Shown here piece by piece: positions 49,939 through 64,000 of a stretch of 64,000 nucleotides of DNA (position 1 is the first letter of the stretch; the number at the start of each line of letters is the position of its first letter). This DNA is from Deltaproteobacteria bacterium. GTDB taxonomy: Bacteria > Desulfobacterota_D > UBA1144 > Nemesobacterales > UBA2774. Both the position numbers and the translations under genes were made by a program. The stretch is from NCBI GenBank assembly GCA_029262275.1, contig JAJCZS010000008.1:1-64000 (forward strand), written 5' to 3'. The notes beneath the pieces were generated by a model. That model was not told the DNA's origin, made no database searches, and saw only the letters and a program-made list of their open reading frames with translations.

Positions 49939-50769
49939 ATGAAAATTAACTGGAAAGAAAGAGTAAAAGGCGATGTTGAAAGACAAATTATAAAAGAAGC
50001 TGATAGAAATACTAAAACAGAACATGAGAGAAAGAGAGAGTTTTACAAAAAACTCTATAGTAAAATCAAAAAATATGAATTTCCACCTAAGGACAAAATT
50101 AACATAAATAAGCACTTTTTCTTTCCGAAGTCCATAATCACAGAATATAATCTCTCAAAACGTGCTTTAGCTGTTTATCCAGTTATGTGTCTTAAAGCAG
50201 ATTTTAAAGTTGATACTTGGTTTCACATTTCTCTTGAGGAAATAGTTACAAAATCTGGTTTGTCAAAAAACACCGTTAGTAAAGCATTATTAGACCTTAA
50301 AGATAAAGGTTTATTGACTAGAGAGAAACGGAATGCTGGTAAGAAACATTATTACTTTTATAGAGTCCAATTCATCCGCAAAGACATGATTGAAGAACAT
50401 TCAAATCAATATTTTATATTTAATCAAAGCATAGTTGATACTGGTACATGGTCAGACCTCAACTTAAGATCAAAAGCACTATATTTAGCATTTAGAGTAA
50501 TGGCTAGATTTGATATAGATACAATATTTGATAAAGACGAGATACAAGAGGCTCCATGGATCGATTATGATTTCTATATTAAAATGAACTTAGCTGAACA
50601 TAGATATAGGGATTATGACATATGTACGGCGCCTATATCATTACTATGTGAATTAGTAGGTATAAATTCATCAAACATAAAGCCGACAATAAAACAATTG
50701 GAAGATTATAATTTGATAAAATATTATTTTTATGGATGTACAGAGGTATATTTGAGACCTAAATTATAA
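49939..50769 (+). CDS. Winged-helix protein, probable replication initiator
   Basis: 276 residues, basic. The first HTH is ISLEEIVTKSGLSKNTVSKALLDLKDKGLL (about 91-120), with a wing RNAGKKHYYFYRV. A second possible HTH lies at the C-terminus: SLLCELVGINSSNIKPTIKQLEDYNLIKYYF (about 233-263). Two winged helices in a row followed by iteron-like repeats fit Rep proteins of iteron plasmids, or a phage replication protein. The family is not certain. Preceded by a structured element; the ribosome site is weak (GAGGG, 15 bases away). Confidence 0.65.
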   Translation: MKINWKERVKGDVERQIIKEADRNTKTEHERKREFYKKLYSKIKKYEFPPKDKININKHFFFPKSIITEYNLSKRALAVYPVMCLKADFKVDTWFHISLEEIVTKSGLSKNTVSKALLDLKDKGLLTREKRNAGKKHYYFYRVQFIRKDMIEEHSNQYFIFNQSIVDTGTWSDLNLRSKALYLAFRVMARFDIDTIFDKDEIQEAPWIDYDFYIKMNLAEHRYRDYDICTAPISLLCELVGINSSNIKPTIKQLEDYNLIKYYFYGCTEVYLRPKL

Positions 50770-50779
50770 TCATAATTAA

Positions 50780-50868
50780 GAGTTGATAGACGATTTATTA
50801 AGAGTCGATAGTACGAATTCGTTAGAGTTGATAGACGATTAGTTAATACTTGATAGACGATTAATTCA
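50780..50868 (+). repeat. Four iteron-like direct repeats of about 22 bp
   Basis: Copies begin at 50780, 50802, 50825 and 50847 (22, 23 and 22 bases apart). The shared core is GAGTTGATAGACGATT; copy 2 is diverged (GAGTCGATAGTACGAATT) and copy 4 starts TACTTGATAGACG. Spacing of two helical turns, AT-rich flanks and a Rep-like gene ending 10 bases upstream suggest an origin of replication. Confidence 0.75.
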
Positions 50869-51296
50869 CGATATATATAAGTATTTTTAAGAATTAGAAG
50901 AAATTATTAAGAAGAGTAAGTGCAATGCAATTTTTTCCTTCTAAAAAACATCATTCTATTTTATAGGTTTACTTTCCTACCATGGTGAAAATTCAAATAG
51001 TGATTTTGTTTCTTCTGGTTATATCTTCTTAAATGTGATGCAATCCACAATTCACCTTCTTACAACAGTTTTTTACCGAAATCACGTATATATGCCCTAA
51101 TTATGTAAGATCTCGCAGTTTTGACCGGTTTACGTTAAGATTTACCCCCGAATATCCTATTTTCATACCGTATCTATAGCTTATTTTCTACTCTACGGTT
51201 TTAAATATTACTTGTTTAGTATAATTTAATATCTAGAACTCCTACTTAAACTAAGCTTAAGAAAAGAGTTCAGAATGATCATTGGTCATTAATATT
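50869..51296. other. AT-rich gene-free stretch after the iteron-like repeats
   Basis: About 430 bases with no gene. Runs of A and T occur near 50875 and 51200. It may be the DNA-unwinding part of an origin, but no clear DnaA box was seen here. Confidence 0.35.
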
Positions 51297-51647
51297 ATGC
51301 AAATATACAGATTAGCTGTTTTAGTTATCATCTTATTTATACCCGCTGTCTCATATGCAGACGGAACACTGAAGTGCGGTATAAAACCGATACCCGAAGT
51401 AGGCTGTCGTATTGGTCGCTGTGTAGACGCTATGTGGGAACAGGTTTGTGACACTTCGCCAACTGTATCATGCGGAATAAAACCAATTCCTAATGTTGGC
51501 TGCAAAATTGGTAGGTGTGTGAATGGAAGGTGGGAACAAGTATGTGATACCTCTCCAACATTAGACTGTGGGATAAAACCAATTCCAGATGTAGGTTGCA
51601 AAATAGGTAGATGTGTGAATGGGATATGGGAACAGGTCTGTTATTGA
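51297..51647 (+). CDS. Secreted protein of three four-cysteine repeats
   Basis: 116 residues. A signal peptide occupies residues 1-21 (MQIYRLAVLVIILFIPAVSYA). The mature protein is three near-identical units of 32 residues, each running C-GIKPIPxVG-C-xIGR-C-V-xxxWEQV-C, separated by DTSPT. It has 12 cysteines in all, so disulfide-bonded repeats outside the cytoplasm are likely. The start MQIYR was chosen over a start 15 bases earlier because the signal peptide is cleaner. A terminator follows at 51718. I cannot assign a function; small adhesive, inhibitory or toxin-like roles are conceivable. Confidence 0.75.
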   Translation: MQIYRLAVLVIILFIPAVSYADGTLKCGIKPIPEVGCRIGRCVDAMWEQVCDTSPTVSCGIKPIPNVGCKIGRCVNGRWEQVCDTSPTLDCGIKPIPDVGCKIGRCVNGIWEQVCY

Positions 51648-51738: not shown

Positions 51739-52022
51739 GTTTGGTTTTATTATTCTAAAATCCCAACTTATACCGAGCTTGACAAAAGGGTGCAGTACAA
51801 GCCTTGACAGCCATTATTTTAAATACATAATATAAATTTGTATGTAAAATTGGATAATATACATTGGAAGACTTCTTAATATTCGAGAATAAACTTGAAA
51901 AATTTTGGGATCTTAGTTTTAAAATTCGAACTGTTCGATATAACCAAAAGATTGTAAAATGCCTGTACAAAAACGGATTCCATACTATAAATAAAGTATC
52001 TTTAATAATAGAAGATAATTTT

Positions 52023-52940
52023 ATGAACAAAAAGAATTTAAACAATAAAAAAGAATGCAAAGGCTGTGGGAAGATATTTTATAAAAAGGATTATGGAACT
52101 ATTAATAAAAATAAATGGGGGAAAAAACAATTTTGTAGTCATCCATGTTATGTAAAGAATATGGAAGAAGCAATAAAAAAAATAAGATCAACAATAAAGA
52201 AAGGATATGAAGAAGGGAGGGTCGTATGGAACAAAGATAAACCAATGAATAAAAATACAAAATTAAAACTTAGCAAGTCCAAAAGAAGGTATGAAGTAAA
52301 TGAAACTTTTTTCAAAAAATGGAACCAAAAAATGGCATATGTTTTTGGATTGTATATTAGTGATGGGAATTTAGTCATAAGAAATAAGCAATTAAGATTT
52401 AGATTGACAGACAAAGAGGTGTTGGAAGATATTAAAGAATTAATGCAAACTCAGCAACCAATAAGAGAAATCATAGGTCGTGATTCTAAAATGTATAACT
52501 TAACTATAACGAGTTTTGAAATAACAGAAGACTTAAAAAAATTAGGTATTAATCCGAGTAAAGAAAACTTCTATAATAATTTCAATATTCCAGATAAGTA
52601 TTTTCCACATTTTTTTAGGGGAGTATTTGAGAGAGATGGTGAAATTCACTTTAATAAACTAAATAAAGGGGTTCAGGTAGTAATAACGAACAACTCAAAA
52701 ATATTTTTAGAAACATTAAAAGAGAAAGTTTATACATCAGTTAATGTTGACATGAGAATAGTTTCAGTAAAAGATAAGAATGCTTACAGATTAGTGTCTT
52801 CAAGAAACGATAATAATTTGAAATTATTTCAGTTCTTATATCCTAATCCTAATGTTTATAAGCTTAAAAGAAAATATGATGTATTTAAAGATTATGTTGA
52901 TAACTGTATCGTGTACAGCAGGCCTAACCCTTTAAAATAA
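52023..52940 (+). CDS. Free-standing LAGLIDADG homing endonuclease with N-terminal NUMOD-like region
   Basis: 305 residues from the ATG at 52023; the frame extends to a TTG at 51864. The N-terminus has a CxxC...CxxxC zinc-finger-like run (CKGCGKIF, then FCSHPCY) and a NUMOD3-like DNA-binding repeat (WNKDKPMNKNTKLKLSKSKR). Two LAGLIDADG motifs follow: FGLYISDGNL and FRGVFERDGEI, each with the catalytic Asp or Glu near the end. So it is a monomeric two-motif nuclease. No host gene or intron interruption was recognised around it, so it is probably a free-standing mobile gene. Confidence 0.85.
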   Translation: MNKKNLNNKKECKGCGKIFYKKDYGTINKNKWGKKQFCSHPCYVKNMEEAIKKIRSTIKKGYEEGRVVWNKDKPMNKNTKLKLSKSKRRYEVNETFFKKWNQKMAYVFGLYISDGNLVIRNKQLRFRLTDKEVLEDIKELMQTQQPIREIIGRDSKMYNLTITSFEITEDLKKLGINPSKENFYNNFNIPDKYFPHFFRGVFERDGEIHFNKLNKGVQVVITNNSKIFLETLKEKVYTSVNVDMRIVSVKDKNAYRLVSSRNDNNLKLFQFLYPNPNVYKLKRKYDVFKDYVDNCIVYSRPNPLK

Positions 52941-53222: not shown

Positions 53223-54860
53223 ATGAATAAAGACAAATTAGAAGAACATATCTCATCACTACTAACTAATAATCCAACTGTATATAAAAAAGATTTAATT
53301 ACTTTTTATTGGACAAGGAAAAAATCGTCTTTACTACTTAATTTACTTAATGAGTTTACCAAAGAAGGCGATTTAATTTTTGATCCATTTTTAGGTTCAG
53401 CACCCATACTTTTTAGTCTAGATACAAAAAAATCAAATTTAGGTTTTGTTGGGTGTGAAATAAATGAAATGCCCATTGCATTTATAAAATTTAATATTAA
53501 ACAAATAGGTAAGAACAAATTAGTAGAACTCAAAGATAAAATTGAAGAATTTAGTAACGAATATATGAAGTACTATGAATACGAGAACCACTTATACAAT
53601 CATAAATCAACCATTTCAAAGTTAATTATTGATAGAATTGATAATCAAGTAATTGTTAATCAATTTCATTTTACTGATGATCCAAAGTCAGTTCTTGATA
53701 GTAAAGCTAATGATAAAATATTTAAGCTTAATTCTGATACTTACTTAAAAAGATGTTGTGAGTGTTTTGAAAAAATTAAAAATAAGGACACCGAATTAGT
53801 TACTAACTCTAGGATAGCTATCAAGTCAGGAATGATGCTATCTAATCTTTTTAACCCAATCAATTTTTATGTGTTGAAAAAATATTCCGAAAAGTTCAAA
53901 AATGATGAATTGATGATTACAATTTTAAGTTCAGTCTTGCACCTTTGTAGATTAACTGACTTAAAGTCGCAATCACAATTTCCGTATTGGGTACCTGATA
54001 AAAATATTATTGAAAGAAATGTCTTACTACTTTTAACAAGGTGTATTGATAAAATTATAAAAAGTAAAGAGCATAATACATTAAAGCTAGATTCAATTAA
54101 TAGCATTAATAAAATCGCTGATAAAAAAAAACCAGTATTAATTATTAATAAAGCTATACAAACTATAACCAATGAAGATATACCAGATAAAACCTTTGAC
54201 TTAGTGATAACAGATCCACCTTACTTTGATCAAGTTGCTTATTCAGAGTACTTAAAAATTTGGGAATATTTTTGTTTCTACAAATCCAATCTTAAGGATG
54301 AAGTTGTATTTTCAAATCGAAAAATTGAGCCAAGCAATGAAGAGCTTTATATTGAAAACCTTAAAAAGTCCTTTATAGTTGTTAAAAATAAATTAAAGGA
54401 TGATGGATTAGTAATCATATTTTTTAAAGATAGCAAACCTAAAAATATTCATATATTTCTTAAAGTAATGGGAGATTGTGGATTAAATTTTATTCGCTCT
54501 TTACATATAGGGAATAAAAAATATACATATAAGCAAAATACGACTCAAGAGACTACAGTTAGTGGAGAGTGTCTATTCTTTTTTGATAAAATTACTAAGA
54601 ATAAAGAATTAATTTTACCTAAAGAAGTTAAACTCAACAAAGCTGAATTGGATATTAAGTTAAATGACATTGTATATGAATTTACAAACAATTACTTAAG
54701 ATACAATCATCTTGCTGAACTTGGTGAGCTTTATGATAATGGATTATTGTACGAATTATATATTAACGGTCTTTTACCGTACATCACTTCATCCAAAACA
54801 ATAGTAGATATTTTGAATAAAAATTTTAATTTATTATACAATAGGAATTATACTAATTGA
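53223..54860 (+). CDS. DNA methyltransferase (N6-adenine or N4-cytosine), first of a pair
   Basis: 545 residues. The SAM motif I DPFLGSAPILFS is at residues 54-65 and the catalytic motif IV TDPPYFDQVAYSEYLKIW at about 329-346, an order I then IV. The rest, including the CCECFEKI run, forms an expanded helical section between them, probably target recognition. The C-terminal ~110 residues have no known motif. TTG of the next gene overlaps this stop. The pair and a convergent nuclease gene form a restriction-modification system. Target sequence unknown. Confidence 0.88.
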   Translation: MNKDKLEEHISSLLTNNPTVYKKDLITFYWTRKKSSLLLNLLNEFTKEGDLIFDPFLGSAPILFSLDTKKSNLGFVGCEINEMPIAFIKFNIKQIGKNKLVELKDKIEEFSNEYMKYYEYENHLYNHKSTISKLIIDRIDNQVIVNQFHFTDDPKSVLDSKANDKIFKLNSDTYLKRCCECFEKIKNKDTELVTNSRIAIKSGMMLSNLFNPINFYVLKKYSEKFKNDELMITILSSVLHLCRLTDLKSQSQFPYWVPDKNIIERNVLLLLTRCIDKIIKSKEHNTLKLDSINSINKIADKKKPVLIINKAIQTITNEDIPDKTFDLVITDPPYFDQVAYSEYLKIWEYFCFYKSNLKDEVVFSNRKIEPSNEELYIENLKKSFIVVKNKLKDDGLVIIFFKDSKPKNIHIFLKVMGDCGLNFIRSLHIGNKKYTYKQNTTQETTVSGECLFFFDKITKNKELILPKEVKLNKAELDIKLNDIVYEFTNNYLRYNHLAELGELYDNGLLYELYINGLLPYITSSKTIVDILNKNFNLLYNRNYTN

Positions 54861-55672
54861 GTAAAGCTGACAAATATAAAGATAAAGTTGTATTAGCTGA
54901 CTGCTTATCAAAATTAAAAAAAATTGATGATAATATTTTTGATCATTGTATTACAGATCCTCCTTACAATATCTCTGGTTATGATAATAAAAAAGAGATT
55001 GGTTGGTATAAATCTAATAATGTATGGAAAGGTGATAAAAAATTCTTAAAAATTAACGAAAATTGGGACAACTTTAGTGATAAAGAGTATTTTGATTTTT
55101 GTTATGAATGGATTTCTGAAATTACACGAGTAGTAAAACTTAATGGAAATATTATGATTTTTGGTTCTTATCACAATATTTATAAAATTGGTTTTATCCT
55201 GGAATTACTGGGATTAAAAATTGTGAACTCTTTGATTTGGTATAAAAGAAATGCTTTTCCTAACATCACGCAACGTATGTTCTGTGAGAGTACAGAGCAA
55301 ATAATATGGGCTGTTAATAATTCTAAAGCTAAAGCCAAAAATTGGACGTTTAACTATAAAGTCATGAAGGAATTAACTCCAAATAAAAAACAAATGAGAA
55401 ATATGTGGGATATACCTATGACTTCTATAAAAGAAAAGACTTATGGTAAGCATCCATCTCAAAAACCGTTAGAAGTGTTAGGTAGGTTAATTTTAGGTTG
55501 TACTAATGCTGACGAATTGATCATTGACCCATTCTGTGGTTCTGGTACTACAGCAGTATCAGCCAAGATTAATGGTAGGCATTACTATATTATAGATAGA
55601 AATAAAGAATACATTGAATTAACTAAAAAAAGACTCAAAAGTACTATCATACAACTACCTCATTCTCTATAA
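54857..55672 (+). CDS. DNA methyltransferase, beta-class, second of a pair
   Basis: 271 residues. Order here is motif IV first (HCITDPPYNISG, about 32-43), target-recognition middle, then motif X and motif I (KHPSQKPLEVLGRLI, then LIIDPFCGSGTTAVSA). This permuted order is that of the beta class (MboII/DpnA type) that methylates adenine N6 or cytosine N4. It starts at TTG overlapping the first methyltransferase gene. Its 3' end overlaps the 3' end of the convergent nuclease gene by 26 bases. Confidence 0.95.
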   Translation: MSKADKYKDKVVLADCLSKLKKIDDNIFDHCITDPPYNISGYDNKKEIGWYKSNNVWKGDKKFLKINENWDNFSDKEYFDFCYEWISEITRVVKLNGNIMIFGSYHNIYKIGFILELLGLKIVNSLIWYKRNAFPNITQRMFCESTEQIIWAVNNSKAKAKNWTFNYKVMKELTPNKKQMRNMWDIPMTSIKEKTYGKHPSQKPLEVLGRLILGCTNADELIIDPFCGSGTTAVSAKINGRHYYIIDRNKEYIELTKKRLKSTIIQLPHSL

Positions 55673-56636
55673 ATTTTTGTATGTCTTTTAATGTTACGCT
55701 TATTTGAAGTCTCCTTAAAGGTTCACCTTTCTTAGATTTTTTTTCATCTAACTTTTCTCTAATCCTATCTAATAAATTAGTATTTACCAAGTAAATCTTC
55801 TTAATTGAAACTGTATCAACATCTTTTATAGCCAATACAAAGTACTTTACATGTTCATATTTTTTTAAAACATTTTCACTTATATCTTGAAAATTCCAAT
55901 TTGTAGCTTTAGAGATTTTATATTCGTATTGATTACCGAATTCATCAAAAGCATCGTGAGCTCCTTCTCGTCCACCTTGCTCAGAATTTACGTTGTGATT
56001 TAGATGTATTGAAGTTAATAATTCCCAGATTTTGTTACTTGTTAAGATATTTTCGACCTTAGATTCAATCTCCATATTTTTTATAACAGTATAAATTTTG
56101 TTTAAGTCTTTTGTATAAATCCCATTAACTGTTTGCTTCTTAACATAAGACTTACTAATTCCCAATCGTGTTTCTAATTGGCGAGGACTGATGTTTATCA
56201 TCTTACGTGTATTTTTAATTGAAAGAATTGCTTGATTTAAGTAATTTGCCATATCACTTCCTTCAACTTCGTAATACCAATCAAATTCGTATATTCCTGT
56301 CACATCACTAATGTGTGTAAATAAAATAGATTTTATGCCATTTAATTTATCAATAGTTGTATTGCTGAAATCATTAAAAGTCCAAGAATGATTTGAGCTT
56401 GTTTCTTTGTAATGTTTGTATTCAAATTCATCACCGAATTTATCTTTCGCATCTCTACTACCACTATGTCCTGGAATTAATTGATGCCCTAAGCTATCAG
56501 CAATAATTATCTCAAAGATTTTGCTATTGCTAAAAATATCATCTATACCATATTGTGTTAGAAAGTATTTCTGAATGATGCTTAATTCCTTAGCTAAATC
56601 CAAGATTTTTGTTTTATTTGTATTATGAAATTTCAT
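55647..56636 (-). CDS. Restriction endonuclease made of two tandem PD-(D/E)XK-like halves
   Basis: 329 residues from ATG at 56636, with GAGGG 10 bases ahead. Two repeats are clear: residues 40-110 (SRDAKDKFGDEFEYK then WTFNDFS) and 203-270 (GAHDAFDEFGNQYEYK then WNFQDIS). Both carry DAxDxFGxx[FY]EYK, the acidic residues and E-x-K of a PD-(D/E)XK active site (E72-Y-K74 and E238-Y-K240). So one chain appears to hold both active sites, like a fused dimer. A linker with an HTH-like run (PRQLETRLGISKSYVKKQ) separates them. Convergent with and overlapping the second methyltransferase gene. Confidence 0.8.
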   Translation of the reverse strand: MKFHNTNKTKILDLAKELSIIQKYFLTQYGIDDIFSNSKIFEIIIADSLGHQLIPGHSGSRDAKDKFGDEFEYKHYKETSSNHSWTFNDFSNTTIDKLNGIKSILFTHISDVTGIYEFDWYYEVEGSDMANYLNQAILSIKNTRKMINISPRQLETRLGISKSYVKKQTVNGIYTKDLNKIYTVIKNMEIESKVENILTSNKIWELLTSIHLNHNVNSEQGGREGAHDAFDEFGNQYEYKISKATNWNFQDISENVLKKYEHVKYFVLAIKDVDTVSIKKIYLVNTNLLDRIREKLDEKKSKKGEPLRRLQISVTLKDIQKFIENEVVV

Positions 56637-57510: not shown

Positions 57511-58155
57511 ATGATTTCTTCACGTTATAGAATTGATAGAGAAAAGGTTTTAGACCTTGATCAAAGGTCAAAACTACTAAGAACATGTGAGAAAAAAGCC
57601 AAACTGGATTTATACTTTGGACGTGAAACGTGGGTAAAACGTTACATGTTGGTAGATTTAGCACTTTATACCGGTTTACGTGTTGCTGAGATAGCTGATT
57701 TAACGATAGGTGATATCAATTTAAAAGCTAGAGATCCATATTTAATTGTAAGAAGTGGAAAGAGAGGCAAAAAAAGAGATGTTTATTTTGACAAAGAACT
57801 CTCAAAACATCTAAAATCATTTATAGATTGGAAAAAGAAAGCCATGAAAGAAGAAGTTAACACTGACAGTCCATTATTTGTTGGTAGATACGGTAAACAC
57901 AGTGCTGTTATAACTCTTATGAAATCATTTAAGAGAGCAGTTCAAGAATCTGATTTGCCTTCACACTTCTCAATACATAGTGCTCGTCATACATATGCTA
58001 CCTTTTTATTACATACAACTAACAATCTTAGGTATGTACAGAAACAGCTTGGACATAGTTCAATAAGTATGACTTCACTATATGCTGATGTCCTACCATC
58101 AGAAAATGGCAGCTTAGCCAATAAGATATTAGAACAATGTAGACAGATAGACTAG
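57511..58155 (+). CDS. Short tyrosine recombinase (catalytic domain only)
   Basis: 214 residues. All catalytic residues are seen: Arg57 in TGLRVAEI, a lysine near 84-88, His156 and Arg159 in HSARHTYATF, His182 in LGHSS, and Tyr191 in SLYADV. The usual N-terminal core-binding (SAM-like) domain is nearly absent, leaving about 40 residues before the catalytic fold. It may serve to resolve element multimers or to integrate cassettes. AGGAGG 6 bases before the ATG. No attachment repeats were found directly around it. Confidence 0.92.
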   Translation: MISSRYRIDREKVLDLDQRSKLLRTCEKKAKLDLYFGRETWVKRYMLVDLALYTGLRVAEIADLTIGDINLKARDPYLIVRSGKRGKKRDVYFDKELSKHLKSFIDWKKKAMKEEVNTDSPLFVGRYGKHSAVITLMKSFKRAVQESDLPSHFSIHSARHTYATFLLHTTNNLRYVQKQLGHSSISMTSLYADVLPSENGSLANKILEQCRQID

Positions 58156-58631: not shown

Positions 58632-61600
58632 CTAATATCTGCCATATATGCCAAGTCTACGGTGCACTTTTTCATCCATCTCCCAATACTGTGCATCATG
58701 CATATATGAAGAAACGATTTTATCTAATATTGTGGATACATATGGAAAATCGAAAGCAAGTTTCCTTGACCAATTTCTATATTTCTCTGCAAGTTCAATC
58801 TCTTGCTTTCCACCCTCTCCCCTCCAAGCAGTCCCTCTTGAATTATAAACTCCTATGGCTAAACCTATAGCTATCTCATTAGATGAAATCTCTTCTAAAA
58901 CACTTCGTACAGATTCACATGGCCAAATATCGTCTTTTCCTATTGGGCTTTTAGCAAGTAGTTGACCGATCATTTGATCCCCAATGTCCTCTCGCGCATA
59001 ATTAATACATAATTCCCGAACTTTAAGTATCCAATCTCTCAGTTTCTTTTGATCAATTTTATTATCTCCTTGATCACCAGGTATTCGCTTTATTTTATCA
59101 AGGAAGTAATAACTTGCTGAAGCTAATGCGCTCTTATCGGTTACGTTATGTGGTATTAATTCTTGAGGATCTACTTGATCATCAGAACGCTTAAATGCTA
59201 AAGCAATCGCTTGGACAAATAGAAATGGTAACTTTTCTACTTCTTTTTCTAGATTTGGTATCCCATATTCGCTGTTATGCAAACTATTTATATGCATAAA
59301 CTCCAGTGTAGCAAGTTGATCCCTTGATACATCTGCTCTTGAATTAAGAATTTCAAACACATTTGATATGTCATATAAAGATATCTGAAAACGTTTATCA
59401 GCCTCACTGCTATTAACGCCAAGATTTTGCAAGAGTTCTATTAGAAGATCTGACTCTATTTTATCAATATGACTATTTGTAGTCATTAACGCTGCCCTAG
59501 GTCGACTACAATTGATAAAATTTTTAATAAATATCTCTAATTCTGACTCATTATGATTTTCAAATCTTGGAGCAACATCGGACCAATATATTTTCTGTAT
59601 CTCACTAGAACGATTTTTTACTATGCTCCATGTTTCCATACGAAATGGTGCGCATTTTAGTAATCGTATAATGTGATCAGAATTATCAGTTTTATCTCTA
59701 TCAAAAACGTCTAGCAATTCTTTAATTAAATGTTTTCTATCCCGAGAGCTAAGTTGATATATGAACCCAGAAATACAACTATCAATTTTATATTCAAGAT
59801 TTTTATCTTTACTAATAATCATCAGATACACTAAATCTGCCCTTGACTTATTTGGTATTGCACCTTGAGCAAGATGTTTACCTATAATTCTTGGAGCTTC
59901 AGAATTACTTAGTAACTCTAATACTCCTTCGATATTTTTTTTTGACCAAATTTTATTTAAAGCCTCTACACGTTTTTTACTTGTTTGTTCCTGGCGCTGT
60001 GTAAAGTCACTTTCCAATTCTTCAATTTTGTTAAAGGATTCATCTATCCATTCTTTCTCAAATAACCAAATATTCTCTATAACAGGGTCTAAAGGAGTTA
60101 ACATGTTGAATGCTTCTCTAGCTAACTTTCTAGTCTCATTATCAAAATATTTATACCCATACCATGTAAAAGCATTTTTTCTTATTGACTCACGCAACTC
60201 TGCTCTTTTGTGATCATTTGTTTCGTTTAAATTCCAAATTTTGATAAGTTCCCATACCCGATTTCTGTCAGAGTCAGGCATTGAAGGAATTCTATGAACG
60301 AGATCAGATAACTTCATTTCATCATAAATATCCCATTCTAGAACGATGTCTAAAACTTTTCTTCTATATTCGTATATTTCCTCGTTGTCCGGTCTAGTAA
60401 CAACTCCGCTTGCATCATTTAACCATTGCGGACGTTGATTTGAATAGGAAACGTTTGTATCTGTATAAATTTGATCCATGCAAATTTGCCAGCCTATGGA
60501 AGGATAGAGCTTAATAATATTTTCTAAAACTTTAATACGCTGATTAAGGTTTGCCGCCGTTTGTGGGCGCCATGAACGAAATATTTCAAGTAGACTATTA
60601 ATAGGTTTATTAACATAGTTATCATTAATTGTATTCTCTGATAGTTTACAGAGAATAGATGCGACTCTGTTTAATCTTTCCGGCTTCCATGCCAGCGTTT
60701 CAAGTGCCCAAAGCAATCCAGCTCTATAACACTCGGACCCAAATATTGAACTATCAACAGGTTCTAACAAAAACAATAATTCAGGTTGTTCACTTTTCAA
60801 ATCTTCCTCTATTATTTCTAAAAAGACATCGGGAGAAGCTTCGGCATAACGTGGTAAATCGTGTTGATGAGATAGCCAAGTTTTTGCTCTAAATGGTTTT
60901 AACAATCCACTGATTAAGGCATTAACCTTTAACTTTATATTTATTCCTAACCTATTTTGAAATAAATCATTACCAAATATTGAAAGTAATACTATGGTCT
61001 CACAAAGATTTTCCCTTAACGCTGATGATTGATTTCTGGTTTTATTATAAAGTGCTGCTGCCCAGCGTTTGTCATTTGGTAAATCGAGGGCAGGATCTTC
61101 TTCACTTAGAACACATGTGGCTACAATAAAGAAGTTATCTAAATTATTGGCAGTTACTAAATCTTTTATTAAAAATAAGCTGTCTAACTTTGATGTTACT
61201 CCTCTATACTTACCAATGCTCCACAATGGTGATTCTTCCATTTTATGTATTTTGGCAAATACTTCTTCTACTCGTTGGTATTTCTTATATTCATAGAAAA
61301 ATAGTACAACATCTTGATCATCAGGATTTGTTGCATCCCAAGCTCCAACTAAAACTAAAGGAATCATTTTTTTTACTAAATCTAAATCTTGAGCCCATAC
61401 CGGTTGTCTAATCTCTGGTATCTGAGATAGCAAACGTCTTAGAACTGTAGGAGACTTACCAGATTTTCTTGAGAATGTATCAACTTCTAATTCATCAATC
61501 CCCATTGAAAGTAGAGATTGTTTAAAGTTTTCATCTCCAAGTATATCAAGTGATATATCAGGATCATTTATTAACGAACCTTTACTACGAACTATAATTA

Positions 61601-62735
61601 TATGTTTCTCTTTTTGTAGTCCCTCTAAAGCTTTTTCCGCATCCCCTGTTCCAATAATAGCAATATAATCAGTGTGAGCTCTACTTAATTTATTGAGAGC
61701 GTCTGCTGACAAAATTACAGCTACGTTATCATAGTAACTTGAGTTAGAATTACTAATGTGTTCAAATAAACACACTAAAAATGCAATAGCTTCATCTTTA
61801 GAATCTGCAGCAACAATATAAGGTTTATCAGGATTTGAATTGAGCCAATCTAAAAACTTACTTTTATATGCTTCAGATGAAGTTAAAAACAATTCTTTAC
61901 CTAACTCGGGTTTAGTACAAGAAGCCCACCTATGCCAATATTGGTCAAGCGATAGAATTTTATCATCATATAGTCCTAGTAATTCGGCAAACCAAATTTG
62001 AGTTTGGAAAGATTGCTCTATCCACTGTTCAAGGTCGTTCGAATCATAAACTCTTACATCTTTGAACTCTGATAGATTCTTTTTTTTAATTTCCCACTCT
62101 TTCTTCTTACTCCAAGTCCTAGGTGTTACAAATACAAATGTTGTTTTCTGTCTTTCACTATTGGAAATAGATTTAATTCGTGATTCATAATCTTTGTCAG
62201 CTTTTGATTTAGGATTCTTATCACAGCCAAATTCCCATCCAGATTTCCCATTAGGAATCCAAGGTGTAGTCGTTTGTGTTTCAACAACTCCATCCCATCC
62301 AGGCTTTTGTGAATTATCATAAGCCGGAAAATCAACTTTACTCAGTTCTATTCCAGTTGTATTGACTAATCTTCTTATAAGTGCGGCAAGAAGTGACCTG
62401 GCTTCAATTGATTCCGACCATAATTCGATTTGACTTGCAGTTATTTTCCTGAAATTAGGACTATAAGTTTGTACTGTTAAGTTTGGCTTATCTTTTTTTA
62501 TTTTAAAGTCATCAAATTTTGTTTGCATATCCAGCAATTCTAGGCTATTCAATTCGAAAGCTTTTTCAAAACGAGCTGCCATTCTAGGTGAGAGTGTTGA
62601 TTTTTCATTAAGAAGATTTGATAATGCGGGCCTGCCAACATTTAAGATTTTTGCAGTGTCTGTAATGGTTAGATTTTTTGATTCTATGAATTTTTTTAGA
62701 AACTTTCCAGGATGTTCGGGTTTGATATTATGCAT
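58632..62735 (-). CDS. 1367-residue HTH / nuclease-like / helical-repeat protein, candidate defence effector
   Basis: Residues 8-62 (HPGKFLKKFIESKNLTITDT, then VGRPALSNLLNEKSTLSPRM) match the HigA-type antitoxin HTH. Residues 105-250 look like a PD-(D/E)XK-type fold: KPGWDGVV (Asp148), SGWEFGCDK (Glu168, Lys173) then KSKADKDYE, TTFVFVTPRTW and VRVYDSNDLEQWIEQS. At 307-320, YIVAADSKDEAIAFL stands where STAND ATPases have a P-loop, but lacks the GxxxxGK[ST] glycines and lysine. The remaining ~900 residues are helical and repeat-like. I believe the 100-320 block recurs in large uncharacterised bacterial proteins, without an agreed function. Position in a defence-bearing island suggests anti-phage activity. 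Confidence 0.8.
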   Translation of the reverse strand: MHNIKPEHPGKFLKKFIESKNLTITDTAKILNVGRPALSNLLNEKSTLSPRMAARFEKAFELNSLELLDMQTKFDDFKIKKDKPNLTVQTYSPNFRKITASQIELWSESIEARSLLAALIRRLVNTTGIELSKVDFPAYDNSQKPGWDGVVETQTTTPWIPNGKSGWEFGCDKNPKSKADKDYESRIKSISNSERQKTTFVFVTPRTWSKKKEWEIKKKNLSEFKDVRVYDSNDLEQWIEQSFQTQIWFAELLGLYDDKILSLDQYWHRWASCTKPELGKELFLTSSEAYKSKFLDWLNSNPDKPYIVAADSKDEAIAFLVCLFEHISNSNSSYYDNVAVILSADALNKLSRAHTDYIAIIGTGDAEKALEGLQKEKHIIIVRSKGSLINDPDISLDILGDENFKQSLLSMGIDELEVDTFSRKSGKSPTVLRRLLSQIPEIRQPVWAQDLDLVKKMIPLVLVGAWDATNPDDQDVVLFFYEYKKYQRVEEVFAKIHKMEESPLWSIGKYRGVTSKLDSLFLIKDLVTANNLDNFFIVATCVLSEEDPALDLPNDKRWAAALYNKTRNQSSALRENLCETIVLLSIFGNDLFQNRLGINIKLKVNALISGLLKPFRAKTWLSHQHDLPRYAEASPDVFLEIIEEDLKSEQPELLFLLEPVDSSIFGSECYRAGLLWALETLAWKPERLNRVASILCKLSENTINDNYVNKPINSLLEIFRSWRPQTAANLNQRIKVLENIIKLYPSIGWQICMDQIYTDTNVSYSNQRPQWLNDASGVVTRPDNEEIYEYRRKVLDIVLEWDIYDEMKLSDLVHRIPSMPDSDRNRVWELIKIWNLNETNDHKRAELRESIRKNAFTWYGYKYFDNETRKLAREAFNMLTPLDPVIENIWLFEKEWIDESFNKIEELESDFTQRQEQTSKKRVEALNKIWSKKNIEGVLELLSNSEAPRIIGKHLAQGAIPNKSRADLVYLMIISKDKNLEYKIDSCISGFIYQLSSRDRKHLIKELLDVFDRDKTDNSDHIIRLLKCAPFRMETWSIVKNRSSEIQKIYWSDVAPRFENHNESELEIFIKNFINCSRPRAALMTTNSHIDKIESDLLIELLQNLGVNSSEADKRFQISLYDISNVFEILNSRADVSRDQLATLEFMHINSLHNSEYGIPNLEKEVEKLPFLFVQAIALAFKRSDDQVDPQELIPHNVTDKSALASASYYFLDKIKRIPGDQGDNKIDQKKLRDWILKVRELCINYAREDIGDQMIGQLLAKSPIGKDDIWPCESVRSVLEEISSNEIAIGLAIGVYNSRGTAWRGEGGKQEIELAEKYRNWSRKLAFDFPYVSTILDKIVSSYMHDAQYWEMDEKVHRRLGIYGRY

Positions 62736-63036: not shown

Positions 63037-64000
63037 TTGGGTAAAGAACAAAAAAAAGCAGTTGGCTACATTAGAGTATCAACCTCTATTCAAGCTAAAG
63101 AAGGTGAAAGTCTCTCAACACAAAAACAACAAATAGCTGATTATGCTAAAAGTAAAGGTTGGCAACTAGACTGTATATACGCTGATGAGGGAATTTCAGG
63201 TACCAAGATTGAGTATAGAACTGATTTTCAGAGAATGGTTCAGGATGCTAAGCAAGGAAAGTTTGAAGTTGTTATCTTCACAAAGCTATCAAGATTTGCA
63301 CGCAATGCTAGAGAATATATGAACTTGTCTTATGAACTGGAAGAGCATGGAATCTCTTTAGTAAGCATAAAAGAAAACATAGATCCAACTTCAAGTACTG
63401 GAAAAATGATAGCAGGGATTTTAGCCTTATTTGCAGAATGGGAACATGAAACTATAAAGGAACAAATGTATGAGAATAAGATGTCTAGGTGGAGGGAGCA
63501 ACGCGCATTTATTGGTATGCCACCTTACGCTTACTACTGGAACAAAGTAAAAAAACAGCTTGAAATTAATAAAGAGGAAGCCAAAGTTTATAAATTGCTT
63601 GTTGACATGTATCTGAATCAAAAAATGTCTTTTGAAGACATAAGTCTAAAGCTCAAAGAACAAGGTATAAAAGGTAAACGTGCATATTGGAGCAGTGCAA
63701 CAATCAGTTATACATTAAAGAATCCAGCATATTACGGCAATTATGTTGTTAATCAGTTCGAATACGAAGAGGGAGTGAGGGGCGTTGGTTCAAAAAGAAC
63801 AAAAAAAAGAAAATCTAGTTCTGAACATATTCCTTTTAAGATTCCACCTTTAATTTCAAAAACGCAATGGGATCTAATACAAAAACAGGCAGAATTTAAT
63901 AAGCGTAAATCTAAACGTTCTGATAAAACAGAAGACTTAATCTTGCGTGATGTTCTTATTTGTGGACGATGTGGAAGTCGAGTAAAGCCAAGAGTAGGAA
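63037..64000 (+). CDS. Large serine recombinase, 3' end cut by window edge
   Basis: Open from TTG at 63037 (AAGGAGG 6 bases ahead) to the window end, 321 residues seen. The resolvase domain starts VGYIRVST with the catalytic Ser15, then SLSTQKQQIADYAKSKGW, YADEGISGT, and KLSRFARN with the conserved arginines; the long helix is ALFAEWEHETIKEQMYENK. A recombinase domain (GMPPYAYYW to NPAYYGNYV) and the beginning of the zinc-ribbon (CGRCGS) follow. This is the phage integrase type that inserts DNA at specific sites without a tRNA. It is the likely enzyme that inserted the island into bcp. Confidence 0.96.
   Translation, partial: MGKEQKKAVGYIRVSTSIQAKEGESLSTQKQQIADYAKSKGWQLDCIYADEGISGTKIEYRTDFQRMVQDAKQGKFEVVIFTKLSRFARNAREYMNLSYELEEHGISLVSIKENIDPTSSTGKMIAGILALFAEWEHETIKEQMYENKMSRWREQRAFIGMPPYAYYWNKVKKQLEINKEEAKVYKLLVDMYLNQKMSFEDISLKLKEQGIKGKRAYWSSATISYTLKNPAYYGNYVVNQFEYEEGVRGVGSKRTKKRKSSSEHIPFKIPPLISKTQWDLIQKQAEFNKRKSKRSDKTEDLILRDVLICGRCGSRVKPRVG

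Follow-up and report, generated by a model that had tools for sequence, protein, structure and literature searches.

Type IIT restriction endonucleases have two different catalytic sites, carried on a single chain or in a heterodimer, recognize an asymmetric site and are usually accompanied by two methyltransferases, which are separate or joined (PMC4081073). Mva1269I, BtsCI, AciI, BsrI, BssSI and BsrBI are single-chain enzymes of this type, and BmgBI is also Type IIT (PMC4081073). A tethered single-chain version of the heterodimer BbvCI works (PMC6326814). PvuII is a homodimer of one-domain subunits acting on CAGCTG; single-chain PvuII is a laboratory construct, attributed in PMC4081073, where it is cited, to Simoncsits et al. 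2001, and is an active pseudo-homodimer (PMC3850674). Here, we analyzed a three-gene locus in a stretch of DNA of 64 kb, referred to as the window (Table 1). The initial annotation had proposed a restriction-modification system with two methyltransferases and a fused-dimer nuclease, and sequence, family comparison and fold all back this proposal. Altogether, the three genes very likely form an anti-virus restriction-modification system, the nuclease of which has two PvuII-type domains.

Table 1. Features of the locus in the window and methyltransferase arrangements beside R in related loci (L numbers)
Feature	Description	Position or loci	Strand
Locus	M1 + M2 + R	53223-56636	
M1	545 aa; predicted N6/N4-type DNA methyltransferase, motif I before IV	53223..54860	+
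M1 motif I	IFDPFLGSA, SAM-binding loop	53376..53402	+
M1 motif IV	TDPPYFDQ, catalytic	54210..54233	+
M2	271 aa; predicted CcrM-like beta-class N6-adenine methyltransferase; TTG start	54857..55672	+
M2 motif IV	TDPPYN	54953..54970	+
M2 motif I	IIDPFCGSG	55520..55546	+
R	329 aa; predicted single-chain tandem PvuII-like endonuclease	55647..56636	-
R active site 1	DAKDKFGDEFEYK, residues 62-74 (D62, E72, K74)	56415..56453	-
R SSNH	Residues 80-83, N half only; candidate base-contact loop	56388..56399	-
R WTFNDFS	Residues 85-91, first copy	56364..56384	-
R linker	Variable, between halves; conserved start RKMIN(I/V)S	56112..56219	-
R active site 2	DAFDEFGNQYEYK, residues 228-240 (D228, E238, K240)	55917..55955	-
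R WNFQDIS	Residues 247-253, second copy	55878..55898	-
Type A	M1 and M2 as two genes	Window, L004, L005, L018, L029	
Type A-fused	M1-M2 in one chain of 849-905 aa	L006, L008, L015, L022, L023, L027	
Type B	M2 + small beta enzyme	L007, L009, L012, L017, L019, L020, L021, L028	
Type C	Dam-like D12 domain fused to M1-like domain	L002, L011, L024, L025	
Cut loci	Same methyltransferase pairs	L010, L016	

The M1 stop codon overlaps the TTG start of M2 by 4 nt, and M2 and R are arranged tail to tail with the 3′ end of R overlapping M2 by 26 nt. R reads from an ATG at 56636 to a stop codon at 55647 on the minus strand; an alternative TTG start nine bases upstream of the ATG would give a protein of 332 aa, and residue numbers here refer to the ATG start. 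No gene for a controller protein, as in PvuII-type control, adjoins R within the window. An HTH_3 gene follows R in the relatives L002, L024 and L025; beside these two genes, the same three loci encode a 797-aa-type protein that combines an M1-like methyltransferase with an Mrr_cat nuclease domain (L002 1308-3701, L024 4307-6691 and L025 2170-4554).

R contains two copies of DAxDxFGxxxEYK, each followed by WxFxD[FI]S, as noted initially, and an alignment of 25 full-length homologues shows both copies to be conserved. In all six frames of the window, the pattern DA.D..G...E.K matches only these two places, and none of 20,000 shuffled versions of R had even one copy. The two halves are homologous beyond these motifs, as hhalign aligned them over 112 columns at 23% identity with a probability of 99.3 and an E value of 2.9e-19, compared with a maximum probability of 22.9% among 50 column-shuffled controls. 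No family in Pfam, NCBIfam or PADLOC matched R. The PHROG family phrog_28628 (191 positions; function unknown) matches R in two stretches, and single-domain relatives of R, as suggested by this family, were not found. A helix-turn-helix within R was considered on account of a weak HTH_3 match in the linker (E 0.035) and rejected, as the structure model has no such fold there.

A single-sequence search of the PDB with R gave no match. In a profile search of solved structures, PvuII came out on top; the best match was single-chain PvuII (3ksk), with an E value of 7.6e-4 and both halves of R covered, and the match to one PvuII chain had an E value of 0.3. At this level, the homology of R to PvuII is weak but top-ranked. 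The AlphaFold model of R, for which the alignment was used without the row from the phage collection, has a pLDDT of 89.8 and a pTM of 0.87. Foldseek aligned this model with 3ksk over 328 columns (E 7.4e-16; TM 0.63-0.66); ordinary PvuII chains followed, each matching at one half, and the first 12 matches were all PvuII. Because the model best matches 3ksk along its whole length, it indicates that R is a natural counterpart of engineered single-chain PvuII. An inactive, non-catalytic half, which would speak against the fused-dimer nuclease proposed initially, was not seen in the fold prediction; rather, R consists of two PvuII-like domains in tandem, and both active sites are conserved.

R shares the full-length fold and the D-x9-E-x-K spacing with R.PvuII and 3ksk, and with the latter also the organization of two domains in one chain. 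However, R is natural and has a natural linker, whereas 3ksk is engineered, and its halves have diverged (23% identity), whereas those of 3ksk are copies. Relative to PvuII, the identity in the structural alignment is 16-20%, and native PvuII has one domain per subunit. Thus, R is predicted to be PvuII-like, a fold assignment that would not imply that the two enzymes are isoschizomers. After PvuII, the next best fold matches were the PvuII-like domains of NhoI and Eco15I, the structures of which are with methylated DNA; these matches were weaker (target-normalized TM about 0.5) and covered approximately one half of R only. BbvCI was not among the 50 fold matches listed for the R model.

Using a profile built from two sequences (R and a relative on the gut scaffold MT836948.1) to search genome contigs, we identified 28 loci in many phyla. 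The hosts include Pelagibacteraceae, Prochlorococcus, Synechococcaceae, Bacteroidota, Bdellovibrionota, Melainabacteria, Zixibacteria, several candidate-phyla bacteria, Bacillota and one archaeon, and most of the relatives have two domains and are full length. R was found neither in plasmids (plasmid search) nor in viral contigs (scans with R and with the whole and half alignments). The sole "phage" match, MT836948.1, is perhaps a piece of bacterial DNA; it resembles loci of Petralouisia muris and strain D16-50. In L023 (10001-11033) and L027 (10001-11264), R is frameshifted and split in two frames, while the adjoining fused M1-M2 gene is intact; either decay or a sequencing error accounts for this.

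All 25 aligned full-length proteins have E-x-K in each half without exception; also invariant are Y73 between E72 and K74 in the first half and D228, A229, D231 and Y239, together with E238 and K240, in the second. D62 is kept in 24 of the 25 homologues and D65 in 21. Because N replaces D62 in L007 and D65 in four homologues, the first active site appears to be slightly less constrained than the second. Both halves are conserved at 18 aligned positions; the residue is the same at 11 of these, which include the catalytic D, E and K, and differs at seven. SSNH is present in at least 90% of homologues in the N half, whereas the C half has a gap or other residues there; the EQ preceding the second active site is without a counterpart in the first half; and N88 versus Q250 is a half-specific conserved non-catalytic difference. 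We suggest that the residues shared by both halves serve catalysis and fold, and that those that differ are candidates for reading the target.

Two separate stretches of M1 match Pfam N6_N4_Mtase (1.7e-13). Its motif I (DPFLGSAP at residue 54, ending in GSAP, not GSG) precedes motif IV (DPPY at 331). M2, which has a Pfam match at 5.8e-45 and matches CcrM in the PDB (6pbd; E 9.5e-45), has DPPY at 34 and DPFCGSG at 224, bearing out the opposite motif orders described in the initial annotation. DPPY forms motif IV not only in M1 and M2 but also in the small beta enzymes listed, and in the case of M1 suggests N6-adenine as the target. M2 is similar in fold and motif order to CcrM, MboIIA and HpyAVI-type beta methyltransferases; unlike these enzymes, it is part of a three-gene restriction system. 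The mean identity of M2 is 61% among 19 systems, and its divergence keeps pace with that of R (r = 0.82; Mantel 0/5000). A lake-water metaepigenome study yielded no usable motif, and the relatives of the methyltransferases gave too uncertain a basis for predicting the target.

In each of the 23 loci that are uncut by a contig end, which include the window and L002, at least two methyltransferase domains of different lineages lie beside R. Because M1 and M2 are fused in several relatives and the gene order beside R is conserved, these comparisons indicate that both are part of the R system. By our own grouping, each system would have one of M2 and D12 together with one of M1 and the small beta enzyme; this pattern would look like the independent replacement of strand-specific enzymes. 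On the R tree, the arrangements are grouped, with four changes compared with a mean of 13.9 after shuffling, and the window locus falls with two Pelagibacteraceae loci (support 100/99).

Computation directly shows that R is built in tandem with the PvuII fold, that both of its active sites are conserved and that it is linked to methyltransferase domains of two different lineages; what we infer is that R cleaves DNA, how the strands are assigned, that the site is asymmetric and that the methylated base is adenine. With considerable confidence, we propose a Type II restriction-modification system of the Type IIT organization, in which R would be a monomeric pseudo-dimer of two diverged PvuII-like PD-(D/E)XK domains in a single chain and M1 and M2 would take one strand each. 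The two domains would clasp DNA in the manner of the two PvuII subunits; each would cut one strand and read one half of a site that is probably not a palindrome. M1 and M2 would place an N6-methyl group on adenine, each in one strand of the same site, and thereby protect host DNA; where the host itself has the target, each strand is thus probably guarded by a different enzyme. Because conserved residues outside the catalytic set differ between the halves of R, and methyltransferase domains of two lineages accompany it at every uncut locus, there is good reason to infer an asymmetric target; the two lineages fit one enzyme per strand of such a site.

Two characteristics of Type IIT systems are found here at the sequence level. 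R has two different catalytic sites, in homologous, non-identical PD-(D/E)XK halves with conserved D, E and K, and two methyltransferases are present at the domain level. With two catalytic sites per chain and two predicted methyltransferase activities, separate or fused, the R system resembles the single-chain Type IIT systems, a likeness drawn from their description (PMC4081073) and not from sequence. R also resembles the heterodimers BbvCI and Bpu10I in having two related, diverged catalytic halves; the asymmetric site is theirs, and they have separate subunits, whereas R is one chain. In contrast to the PvuII system with its one N4-cytosine methyltransferase, M.PvuII, the R system has two predicted adenine-type enzymes.

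A single palindrome can likewise be served by a pair of methyltransferases of different classes, as GATC is in the DpnII system. With this precedent, R could be a single-chain PvuII-like enzyme acting on a palindrome, and the two methyltransferases could be present for another reason, e.g., as a DpnII-like duplex/single-strand pair. M2 and the small beta enzymes match structures labeled DpnA, and engineered single-chain PvuII works as a pseudo-homodimer (PMC3850674). However, a symmetric site would not require that the halves of R differ at positions that each half conserves, and the one-to-one fusion of M1 and M2 in several lineages is unlike an accessory single-strand enzyme, making a palindromic target unlikely. 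A few homologues carry single substitutions at D62 or D65 of the first half, which could be taken to mean that one half is a DNA-binding or nicking-deficient pseudo-domain and that R is a nickase or a dimer of dimers; we consider this highly improbable, as E-x-K is invariant in both halves in 25 of 25 proteins, D62 is nearly always kept and the R model as a whole matches the two-site single-chain PvuII.

The locus lies in an island of very low GC content with recombinase genes near, and R is broken in the relatives L023 and L027, which could argue that the three genes are unrelated neighbors or a decaying remnant and not a working system. Yet all three frames are open, the motifs are intact, the genes overlap by 4 and 26 nt and the arrangement is conserved across many phyla, so that we give this explanation the least credence of all. 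We prefer the Type IIT organization with a probably asymmetric target.

This general type of system is known, and the R family appears to be unnamed in the libraries searched. No description of a natural tandem PvuII-like enzyme was found in the full-text literature searched, the coverage of which is incomplete and without REBASE. The R system would be a new PvuII-lineage member of Type IIT, and its own line is apparently undescribed; the comparison with AciI, BsrBI and BmgBI is by description only. We lean slightly toward the idea that R represents an undescribed natural single-chain PvuII-like Type IIT family with a single asymmetric target that is conserved from phylum to phylum. The nuclease would have remained unchanged, while each of the two strand-specific methyltransferase slots (M2 or Dam-like; M1 or small beta) underwent replacement independently of the other. 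If so, gene duplication in nature made what was engineered as single-chain PvuII, and R, at 329 aa, would be a compact scaffold, with two separable active sites, from which strand-specific nicking enzymes could be derived. The family would also be a natural experiment in which the methyltransferase of each strand has seemingly been swapped independently against a conserved nuclease. Present annotation misses R because there is no Pfam, NCBIfam or PADLOC model for it.

The GC content of M1, M2 and R is 26.9%, whereas that of the window's first 48 kb is 40.1%. R was found in none of 57 other genomes of the same phylum, and in none of 379 and 395 other genomes in two further phyla sampled, in which it is rare. 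Based on the low GC content, the absence from the 57 genomes and the nearby recombinase genes, the R system was probably acquired horizontally.

Several other genes surround the locus. Just upstream of M1, 51864-52940 (+) encodes a LAGLIDADG-type homing endonuclease-like protein (Pfam 5.1e-8; phrog_4645 3.6e-31). An ORF of 121 aa at 51282-51647 (+), with no family match above the cutoff, has a hydrophobic N terminus followed by three near-identical repeats of ~30 residues (CGIKPIPxVGCxIGRCV...WEQVCDTSPT). A short XerC-like integrase is encoded at 57511-58155 (+), and a 28-nt piece 6.5 kb away (51108-51135), which ends in a stop, is 82% identical to its coding sequence and is perhaps a remnant integrase copy. 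A serine recombinase (Pfam Resolvase + Recombinase) at 63037-63999 (+) runs off the end of the window. A winged-helix replication-initiator-like protein (49939-50878) followed by iteron-like direct repeats (50779-50878) suggests an integrated plasmid-like element. Finally, 58632-62735 (-) encodes a protein of 1367 aa with a HigA-like helix-turn-helix at its front (NCBIfam TIGR02607, 5e-14) and a body matching phrog_18693 (2e-146; function unknown); the protein also has a weak match to PADLOC PD-Lambda-4_A (5.6e-4), and this is possibly a second defense gene.
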